Source: Verrucomicrobiales bacterium
GTDB lineage: Bacteria; Verrucomicrobiota; Verrucomicrobiia; Verrucomicrobiales; V1-33
Length of the DNA: 64,000 nt
Assembly (NCBI GenBank): GCA_028293125.1
Contig: JAQGPJ010000030.1
Location: forward strand, 1-64,000
Reading direction: 5' to 3'
Positions within the stretch are counted from its first letter, which is position 1. The number at the start of each line of letters is the position of its first letter. Under the pieces are notes generated by a model. The model had not been told where the DNA came from and did not search any database. It saw only the letters and a list, made by a program, of their open reading frames with translations. Both the position numbers and the translations under genes were made by a program. This document shows, piece after piece, positions 397-4,425 of the stretch.

Positions 397-1941
397 ATGG
401 AGATTCCCTATACCGTTTCCGCCCGGCCAGATACCGGCCTCTACAATGCCAAAGTCGGCATCTGGCTGTTTCTGGCATCCGAGGTCATGCTCTTCGGCGG
501 CCTGTTTTCCTCCTATGTGTTCCTCCGCATCGGCGCGGACTTCTCCTGGCCGTTCCATGAGCTGAATGTCCTTCCGGGCTTCATCAACACCATGGTGCTG
601 ATCGCCTCCTCCGTGACGGTGGTGGCGGCGTGGGCGGCTTTGAAAGCCCGGCGCTACGGATGGTTCCAGATCAACATGATCATCACCATCGCGTGCTCGC
701 TGGCGTTCATGGGCATCAAGAGCTATGAATACTACGGGAAGTTCATGCACTACAGCGTGATTCTCAAGGACGGCACCATTCTCGATGGCCACCCCGCCCA
801 CGCCTCCGAGGAGCATGCGGGGGACAAAATCACGCTCACGGAAGTCAGGGAGATCACCCTCGCGCCCGCTTGGAGCACGCTTAATTTCCTGAATAACCGC
901 CGTGTTGCCGAGGGCTCGAGACCCTTTGCCTCAGTGCCGGAGGGTCAGCATGTCAAAGTCCGTCTTCCCTCCACAGGAGCGGAGACCGAACTGACCAAGG
1001 AGTGGTTCAAAGAAATTAAAAAGCAGTATTGGGAACTGCGTAACGCCCGCTCCGAACTGGCCACCCTGACCGCCCGTTTGGAGGCTCCCCGGATCCGCGC
1101 CGAGGAACTTCGGAAAACCGGGGAAGGGGAGAACAAAGTGGAGGTTGATTACCGCAGGGTGGAAAGCCTGCTGAAGGATTACGCTGAGGGCAAAAAGGAG
1201 AATAACAACAAGATCGCGGAGCTTGCCCAGAAGGTCAAATCCCTGGAGACCGCCCATCCGGATGTGGTGGGCGACACCCTGACCCTTCAGGTGGTGGGCA
1301 ATCCGCTGGTGTTCCTTGTGGGGGAAAAGAACCTCCAGACCTACAGCCCCACGCAGATCGTTTTCCGCGACACCACCATCCTGAATGGTAAAATGACCGG
1401 GGACGCCATTCCCTTCAACATCGACGCCATCGACCTCCGCAAGGTGAAGAAGCCCGAGGAGTCCATGGCTTGGAAATATTTCCCGCAGCTCAAGGGGAAT
1501 TATGAGAAGCACCGTGAGGAGAAAACCGCGGAGTATATCAAAAAGCACCCGGACCATGCCGGCAACTATGTGGAGGTGGGCGATTGGCAGCACGAAGTTC
1601 TGCGCATTCCGCTGCATGAAATGCTGTCCGAGGAGGACGCTCACGCGTATCTTCACGATGAGGCCCACACCGTTCAGATCAACCGTGCCGACCGGCAGTT
1701 CTACTCCAACTTCTCCCCCAGCCGCAGCCCCTACTATGCCATCTACTTCCTGATGACCGGTCTGCACGGCCTGCATGTGATCGGGGGAGCCATCGTCCTG
1801 ACCTACTTCCTTGTCACCGGCCGCCGGATGTACCGCACCAATCCCGAACATTTGGCCAACCGGGTGGAGGTCGGGGGTCTGTTCTGGCACTTCGTTGACC
1901 TTGTCTGGATCTTCCTGTTCCCTGTCTTTTACCTGATGTAA
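397..1941 (+). CDS. ctaE: Cytochrome c oxidase subunit III with large soluble insertion
   Basis: This is the subunit III core of a heme-copper oxidase. Transmembrane segments are predicted at about residues 20-43, 61-82, 89-110, 447-473 and 494-513, and the last two carry subunit III signatures (YFLMTGLHGLHVIGG and GLFWHFVDLVWIFLFP). The protein is 514 residues, against about 200 for bacterial five-helix subunit III. The excess is one hydrophilic insertion, about residues 115-430, between helix 3 and helix 4. It contains a charged, probably coiled-coil stretch at about 200-285 and then beta-rich sequence. The frame and codon use stay uniform, so this is not a simple frameshift artefact. Subunit IV follows 12 bp downstream. 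Confidence 0.9.
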   Translation: MEIPYTVSARPDTGLYNAKVGIWLFLASEVMLFGGLFSSYVFLRIGADFSWPFHELNVLPGFINTMVLIASSVTVVAAWAALKARRYGWFQINMIITIACSLAFMGIKSYEYYGKFMHYSVILKDGTILDGHPAHASEEHAGDKITLTEVREITLAPAWSTLNFLNNRRVAEGSRPFASVPEGQHVKVRLPSTGAETELTKEWFKEIKKQYWELRNARSELATLTARLEAPRIRAEELRKTGEGENKVEVDYRRVESLLKDYAEGKKENNNKIAELAQKVKSLETAHPDVVGDTLTLQVVGNPLVFLVGEKNLQTYSPTQIVFRDTTILNGKMTGDAIPFNIDAIDLRKVKKPEESMAWKYFPQLKGNYEKHREEKTAEYIKKHPDHAGNYVEVGDWQHEVLRIPLHEMLSEEDAHAYLHDEAHTVQINRADRQFYSNFSPSRSPYYAIYFLMTGLHGLHVIGGAIVLTYFLVTGRRMYRTNPEHLANRVEVGGLFWHFVDLVWIFLFPVFYLM

Positions 1942-1953
1942 TCCGCTCCCTGT

Positions 1954-2313
1954 ATGGAACCTTCCCCTGATAAATCACACGGGCACGACAGCGGTCACGA
2001 CGCCCATCCGCCGGTTGATCTGGCCAAAAGCGTCCGCACCTACCTCAAGGTGGGCGGCACCCTGATCCTCTTCACCGGTATCACCTGGGCAGTGGCTCTG
2101 GTGGACTTTGGCAGCCATGCGGCCAACTACGCCATCGGTCTCTCCATCGCCACTTTCAAGGTGTCGCTCGTTGGCCTGATTTTCATGCACCTTAATCACG
2201 AGCGGCCCCTGATCTACAAAGTGCTGCTTTTCACGGTCATTTTCGCCGCCGCCATGATGTTTCTCACCGTGCTGTCGTATCTTGATCCGATCAAAGCGCG
2301 TTTCGGCTTCTGA
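1954..2313 (+). CDS. Cytochrome c oxidase subunit IV family protein
   Basis: This 119-residue protein has a His/Asp-rich N-terminus (HGHDSGHDAH) and three hydrophobic helices at about 31-51, 59-79 and 88-109, the layout of bacterial oxidase subunit IV (CyoD/CtaF-like). The segment KVSLVGLIFMHLNHE matches the family's central helix. The protein is presumed to stabilise the oxidase and has no catalytic residues. It lies 12 bp after subunit III. Its stop codon overlaps an ATG of a longer form of the next gene at 2313, although that gene probably starts at 2364. Confidence 0.88.
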   Translation: MEPSPDKSHGHDSGHDAHPPVDLAKSVRTYLKVGGTLILFTGITWAVALVDFGSHAANYAIGLSIATFKVSLVGLIFMHLNHERPLIYKVLLFTVIFAAAMMFLTVLSYLDPIKARFGF

Positions 2314-2881: not shown

Positions 2882-4425
2882 ATGGGCTTCCTGAATAAAC
2901 TCTTCGGTATCATCGACAACGGCTCGGAGCACGGGTCGATGGTGGACCACATGCTTGAAATTGTGCATTGGTTCATGGCCGTCCTTTTTGTCGGCTGGTC
3001 CATCTACTTGGTGATCGCTGTGTGGAAGGGCTACCATAAGCGCACGCCCAAAGCAAACTACCATGGCATTCAAAGTCATGCCTCCAGTCACATTGAGATC
3101 GGGGTGATCATCACCGAAATCATCCTGCTCATGGGCTTCGCCTTCCCGCTGTGGGCCAACCGTGTGGATCAGTTTCCGGATCCGGACGTTAAAATCAAAG
3201 CCCTCGCCGAGCAGTTCGCTTGGAATTTCCAGTATGCGGGAGCCGATGGAAAGCTGGGGGCGACAGACCGTTTTCTGATCAGTTCCCAAAATCCCGCAGG
3301 TATTGATCCTGAGGACCCGAACGGCTGGGATGATTTTATCAGTGGTTCGCTCACACTGCCCAGAGGCAAAAAGGTGGAGATCAATGTCACGTCCAAGGAC
3401 GTGATTCACAACCTCGCACTGCCGGTGATGCGCATCGCCCAGGATGCCGACCCCGGCAAGGAGTCCCGCATGTGGTTCATTCCCACCAAAGTCGGCAAAT
3501 CCGAAATCATCTGTGGCCAGCTTTGCGGCCCTGCCCACGCCAACATGCGTTCCGTGTTGGAGATCGTTCCCGACGACAAAACCTTCGCCACTTGGATGGG
3601 CGAGCAGAATGTTTTTGGGGACAGCGCTGCTGCGCAGGAAGTAAAAAAGAAACTGCAGGCCTCCGGCCGTCTGCCGGTTACTCTGACTCCGGCACCTGCC
3701 GCCGCACCGGCACCAGCGGTCCCGGCCACGCCTGCTCCGGCCCCGGCCCCGGCAGCCACTCAGGTCCCTGCCCCCGCACAGGTGGCCCCGGCTCCCACAG
3801 TGCCTGAACCTGCTCCCACCGCAGCCCCGGGGGTTCCCACTGCCGCCCCCGTTCCCGCCGCCCCCGCCGCTCAAAACCCGTCGGCACCGACTGCGGCCCC
3901 TGCCCCGGCTCCCGCAGTGCCTGAACCTGCTCCCACCGCAGCGCCGGGGGCTCCCACTGCCGCCCCCGTTCCCGCCGCCCCCGCAGCTCAAAACCCGCCG
4001 TCACCGACTGCGGCTGCTACTCCCGCTCCTGAGTCTTCAGACGAAGCCAAAATCGAACTGGGGGTGATTGCGGCAGTGATGAAATTTGACAAGCCAACTC
4101 TGACGGTGAAGCCGGGTCAGAAAGTGACGCTGCTTTTTAAAAATGCCAGATGTCCCCTGCAGCATAATTTCCTTCTCGTGAAGCCCGGCAAGTTGAGTGA
4201 GGTCGGTGGCCTTGCCGACAAAATGCTCACCGATCCCAGGCGCTGGCCAAGCACTATATTCCCTCCAGCCCGGAAATCATCGCCCACAGCAGCAAGCTGG
4301 TCGGCATCGGTCAGAGTGATTTAATCCAGTTCACCGCCCCCTCCGAAGCCGGCGATTATCCTTATCTCTGCACTTTCCCCGCGCACTGGCGCCTCATGAA
4401 CGGGGTGCTGAAAGTGGCTCTCTGA
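2882..4425 (+). CDS. ctaC: Cytochrome c oxidase subunit II with extra C-terminal cupredoxin domain, frameshifted near 4237
   Basis: Two N-terminal transmembrane helices (about 26-48 and 68-92) precede the CuA domain. CuA ligands are visible: H166 in VIHN, then C201, C205, H209 and M212 in CGQLCGPAHANM, with Gln where many homologues have Glu. A Pro/Ala-rich linker (about 265-385) leads to a second cupredoxin-like domain. The uninterrupted frame ends at 4324. Shifting by one base at about 4237 restores a typical cupredoxin end (AGDYPYLCTFPAHWRLMNG) stopping at 4425. The His of this second site (H428, in QHNFLL) lies before the shift and its Cys, His and Met lie after it. The shift may be a lost C in the CCC run, a sequencing error or a real mutation. 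Subunit II normally precedes subunit I, so the order is also unusual. Confidence 0.85.
3782..4015 (+). repeat. Two tandem copies of a 117-bp Pro/Ala linker repeat
   Basis: Within the subunit II linker, 3782-3898 and 3899-4015 are near-identical in-frame copies of 117 bp (39 codons). Both contain VPEPAPTAAPG, then PTAAPVPAAPAAQNP. Differences are scattered point changes. Slippage or unequal recombination between the copies would change linker length without changing frame. Confidence 0.85.

Follow-up and report, generated by a model that had tools for sequence, protein, structure and literature searches.

A one-base shift within an azurin/auracyanin-like domain fused to cytochrome c oxidase subunit II in a Verrucomicrobiales bacterium

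Does a subunit II gene whose C-terminal copper domain is spread over two reading frames carry a disabling mutation, a sequencing error or an unusual frameshift? These three possibilities were raised by an original prediction for coxB of a Verrucomicrobiales bacterium (genome G000). The window analysed here covers the first 64 kb of contig C47, from an assembly of 6.48 Mb in 120 contigs that is 99.1% complete. It opens inside coxA, the C-terminus of which occupies positions 1-342, and the cox genes that follow are listed with the features of coxB in Table 1. The subunit III gene is unusually long at 514 aa, with a large insert, apparently common to relatives, that separates its first transmembrane helices from the COX3 part at the C-terminus.

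The coxB reading frames and the site of the shift

The CuA part of CoxB is intact. The COX2 domain (residues 104-228) scored 46.7 bits against PF00116, for which the cut-off is 22, the CuA ligands, a His and CxxxCxxxHxxM, are complete, and residues 1-287 of the 480-aa product are 73% identical to a same-genus coxB product. A second full coxA-like gene is present on contig C53 (L199), yet coxB is the sole COX2-domain gene found in the genome. The linker that follows contains a near-identical internal repeat of roughly 120 bp (3796-4015), where the length may vary or the assembly may have collapsed.

It had been predicted that the frame before about 4237 encodes a cupredoxin-like start with its His in QHNFLL, and that another frame encodes the Cys, His and Met of CTFPAHWRLM thereafter. 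Both elements are present as described. The His codon (CAT) lies within the coxB ORF, and those for Cys (4369-4371), His (4384-4386) and Met (4396-4398) lie in the -1 frame, which closes with TGA at 4423-4425. The further claim that a full set of type 1 copper ligands exists only if the frames are joined also held, since the ligands are distributed over two frames and the protein as read carries the first His only. Without any homology input, a coding model based on hexamers and trained on 1.13 Mb of sequence from this genome placed the frame switch at 4237. The downstream 61 residues alone matched the Pfam Copper-bind model (E 4e-6) and the NCBIfam azurin model (E 8e-9, under that model's equivalog cut-off). 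The match of the downstream frame to a cupredoxin is not due to chance.

The same genome encodes this domain a second time, as an intact stand-alone gene (C31:115212-115793; L002:1408-1992). The first half of the coxB domain is identical to the stand-alone protein at 51 of 61 residues, and the second half is similarly close (Table 1), with the peptide LVGIGQSDLIQFTAPSEAGDYPYLCTFPAHWR where its counterpart reads APAEPGDYPYLCTFPGHWR. At the DNA level the two copies share 82.6% identity across 380 positions, and their alignment has one 1-base gap, which falls exactly at the break: the window has GAT-CCCAGG, with three C's, and the paralogue has GATCCCCAGG, with four. The run also comprises four C's in the stand-alone gene of the same-genus relative G004; in the G001 and G003 genes it comprises five (GACCCCCAGG).

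Table 1 Features of the cox genes in the window
Feature	Position	Strand	Description
coxC	397-1941		PF00510
Subunit IV gene	1954-2313		PF03626
coxB (cytochrome c oxidase subunit II), ORF as read	2882-4324	+	480 aa, TAA 4322-4324; PF00116 E 3.6e-12
CuA ligand region	3407-3547	+	His CAC 3407-3409 (DVIHN); CxxxCxxxHxxM 3512-3547, CGQLCGPAHANM; intact
Ala/Pro-rich linker	3660-4050	+	VPEPAPTAAPGxPTAAPVPAAPAAQNP present twice; same-genus CoxB end inside a similar Ala/Pro tail
First half of azurin/auracyanin-like domain	4052-4234	+	coxB frame, 61 codons; type 1 copper His 4163-4165
One-base shift site	4235-4237	+	GATCCCAGG in the window, GATCCCCAGG in the stand-alone paralogue; single 1-nt gap
Second half of domain	4237-4425	+	-1 frame, 62 codons and stop; 84% identity to paralogue; PF00127 E 4e-6
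Out-of-frame tail of 480-aa product	4238-4324	+	RRWPSTIFPPARKSS..., no homology, TAA-terminated; coding score -43 past the switch

Ancestry of the fused domain

Judged by its sequence, the second domain is an azurin/auracyanin-like type 1 copper domain. Against Pfam Copper-bind (PF00127, cut-off 21.2 bits), the downstream half scored 27.6 bits and the stand-alone paralogue 42.9 bits. Against the azurin equivalog model TIGR02695 the scores were 35.9 and 40.1 bits; since both are below the cut-off of 105.1, the proteins are better described as azurin-like than as azurins proper. Among solved structures, the stand-alone protein is closest to auracyanin A, a blue copper protein of the Roseiflexus type and azurins. 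Its best sequence matches in the PDB, auracyanins A and B and related blue copper proteins (2aan, 1ov8 and 6kol, the last of which we take to be the Roseiflexus-type protein), have the same His, Cys, His and Met ligands but are stand-alone or membrane-anchored and lie outside subunit II.

In a phylogenetic tree the window's domain is sister to the stand-alone protein of its own genome (support 99/94), within the group formed by the genus, and each half treed alone was placed beside the same copy (99/93 and 90/77). In the comparison with close relatives called for by the original prediction, the same shift was absent from the relatives, and the CoxB of three same-genus genomes (G001, G003 and G004) share the Ala/Pro tail and then end, lacking the domain altogether, as do those of G008, G011 and G012. 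Intact fusions in one frame were found in the CoxB of G005 (431 aa; L010:1495-2787) and G006 (405 aa; L011:1468-2682), which represent two other genera of the family; these fusions are probably of separate origin.

The AU test rejected descent of the fusions of G000, G005 and G006 from one old event (p-AU 0.00012), and likewise a common origin of the fused domains of the window and G005 (p-AU 0.0016). Together with the sister placement, this indicates that the fusion arose in the lineage of G000 from its local stand-alone gene, and that CoxB gained similar fusions elsewhere in the family. The G005 and G006 sequences form long branches whose exact placement is uncertain, so the number of fusion events is at least two and not certainly three. 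Given the tree and the absence of the domain from same-genus coxB genes, we regard it as a young and optional add-on. No description of an azurin-like domain on an A-type CoxB in this group was found in the literature searched, in which journal coverage was partial.

Mutation, assembly error or recoding

The age of the lesion was examined by comparing the two halves of the domain with the paralogue. Before the shift dS is 0.75 and dN/dS is 0.10; after it, read in the -1 frame, dS is 0.80 and dN/dS is 0.12. Third positions of the -1 frame account for 24 of the 35 downstream differences (p 2e-5 against an even spread). Purifying selection that is equal on both sides, with this third-position bias, indicates that the downstream half was coding and under selection for nearly all of its separate history. 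No relaxation of selection past the lesion was seen in these ratios, and any relaxation would be too recent for detection. The shift is therefore either very recent or absent from the organism, having arisen as an assembly error.

Two other readings can be set aside with little hesitation. The existence of two ORFs might be taken to mean two separate genes, a reading to which we give practically no credence: the downstream frame has its first start codon at 4396, past the Cys and His ligands, and the alignment to the paralogue refutes it because the halves are two parts of one domain that they cover free of gaps. The strong conservation of the -1 frame immediately past the break would also be expected if programmed -1 ribosomal frameshifting or transcriptional slippage bypassed a real shift and both short and full-length CoxB were made. 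An open -1 frame begins only at 4201, and, in line with the earlier remark that CCCAGG is not a classic slippery site, the interval where a shift is possible (4201-4322) contains no X XXY YYZ heptamer. None was found in 4141-4324 either, and one partial heptamer, at 4135, is followed by a -1-frame stop. Folding of the downstream RNA is no better than that of shuffled sequence (z -0.09), and neither the fused genes of G005 and G006 nor any of the intact stand-alone genes change frame, so that the shift is not conserved. A run of three C's is, to our knowledge, too short for the known slippage sites, and the CCC-AGG context would favor +1, which is the wrong direction. The lack of a slippery site and RNA structure and the one-frame relatives make recoding very improbable. 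Thus, while error and disabling mutation are both still live among the three possibilities first raised, the unusual frameshift is now unlikely.

The contest is between a true deletion and an error in sequencing or assembly, in which case the gene would be intact in the organism and would encode a CuA subunit to which a whole azurin-like domain is tethered. Error is a substantial possibility that we place clearly short of even. It is consistent with the equal selection on both halves and the absence of a second lesion, with the position of the base in a C run in a genome of 62% G+C, and with the clean one-base splits of two other genes in the same assembly, for HsdM and gamma-glutamyltranspeptidase. 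But four C's make a short run for a homopolymer error, and when 138 kb of the assembly was surveyed by alignment to the proteins of relatives, all of which are other species, the sole other shift lay in an already truncated GtrA remnant; a badly error-ridden assembly was rejected on this ground. The overall rate of split genes also predicts only about 0.2 per 64 kb from all causes. Since the assembly looks good and the run is short, we rank a real mutation over an error, and consider on balance that a recent and tolerated one-base deletion in a lineage-specific fused domain is the somewhat probable explanation. Mutation and assembly error can be separated by sequencing reads alone.

Other split genes were sought by a coding-potential scan of 1.13 Mb of G000, which besides coxB and IS630-type transposases detected three. 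HsdM, a type I methyltransferase (L080:15821-17316, minus strand; C31 about 35.8-37.3 kb), has a one-base shift in a C run within GQYFTP and reads one C short, a lesion of the same kind as that in coxB. The gene for gamma-glutamyltranspeptidase (L084:16569-18526, plus strand; C31 about 116.6-118.5 kb) has a one-base split and lies within 1 kb of the stand-alone cupredoxin gene, on its downstream side. The Pfam profile positions continue across both splits (32 to 31 for HsdM and 268 to 269 for gamma-glutamyltranspeptidase). An alpha/beta-hydrolase-like gene (L091:14512-16104, plus strand; C111) has two frame shifts and is a probable pseudogene. With the GtrA-like remnant (L083:2239-2509, plus strand; C31), which is frameshifted and lacks the N-terminal part present in G004, it demonstrates that truly decayed genes exist in this genome, a point in favor of a real mutation in coxB. 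Copies of the IS630-type transposase (L123:10040-10997; L136, reverse, 1380-2339) change frame twice: once at a run of A's (ATATAAAAAAAGACG), which may reflect a programmed shift belonging to the element itself, and a second time farther along. The same-genus G004 has 3 such candidates in 0.79 Mb. The rate of split genes is ordinary for either cause, and the two further clean one-base breaks in 1.13 Mb fit a low assembly-error rate equally well.

Proposed history and function of the fused domain

We propose that coxB gained a C-terminal azurin/auracyanin-like domain in its own lineage, from a copy of the stand-alone cupredoxin gene that was set after the Ala/Pro-rich linker. The fused domain would presumably have passed electrons to CuA as a tethered carrier. 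The recent loss of one C from a run of four may then have caused the frame to end midway through the domain. The predicted product is a normal CuA subunit II with the linker, half a cupredoxin and about 29 out-of-frame residues, devoid of the Cys-His-Met ligands. What was observed in support of this history is the one-base shift, the intact paralogue, the pattern of selection, the position in the tree and the lack of the domain in same-genus relatives; the role as electron carrier, and that the lesion is real and tolerated, are what we infer.

Loss of the domain should be tolerable, because the CuA site is intact, oxidases of the same genus do without the domain, and other carriers are encoded, namely the intact stand-alone cupredoxin and a monohaem cytochrome c whose gene is probably in the same cluster as coxB. 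The latter is encoded on contig C118 just before a coxA gene that runs off the contig end (L200). Since C118 breaks off within coxA and the window opens with the part of coxA that is missing there, C118 and C47 are probably adjacent. C118 also carries a cbb3-like subunit pair and an NrfD-family gene (PF03916), a family that comprises membrane subunits of alternative complex III. Adjacency would thus make one cluster extending from a quinol-oxidising complex through to coxB. A bc1-type cytochrome b was not found in the genome. For electron transfer to the aa3 oxidase, Flavobacterium johnsoniae does not require the monohaem subunit of alternative complex III (PMC8552683), and we liken this case to a plausibly harmless loss of the carrier domain here.

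Oxidases with tethered carriers offer several points of comparison. CoxB of the caa3 type bears a C-terminal cytochrome c as electron carrier on the CuA subunit II; there the carrier is a haem protein, whereas here it is a type 1 copper protein. A haloarchaeal fusion of halocyanin to a subunit IIa helix likewise joins a blue copper donor covalently to the subunit II equivalent of a haem-copper oxidase, although the oxidase is of the B type (ba3) and the cupredoxin family and the joining point are different (PMC3128077). The tri-haem and di-haem forms of Neisseria CcoP provide a parallel for the loss: a tethered redox domain after an Ala/Ser/Pro-rich linker was lost in one species by a single-base change, and that domain too resembles one from another carrier of the cell, cytochrome c5 (PMC2924362). 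CcoP differs in belonging to a cbb3 oxidase, in carrying a cytochrome c domain rather than a cupredoxin, and in that the change is a nonsense substitution rather than a frameshift and is fixed in the species (PMC2924362).

A frameshift is an ordinary event in itself, and the useful part of this finding is the history of the gene. We suggest tentatively, as something a little less than an even prospect, that an azurin-like carrier was joined to A-type CoxB independently at least twice, and probably three times, within one Verrucomicrobiales family, which would mark the stand-alone protein as a donor of electrons to the CuA oxidase, and that the tether was then switched off here by a one-base deletion. 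The repeated joining to CoxB, in bacteria mostly without a detected bc1-type cytochrome b, and the NrfD-type protein of this genome suggest that the stand-alone blue copper protein carries electrons to the terminal oxidase. The role of this small blue copper protein as an electron donor is directly testable.
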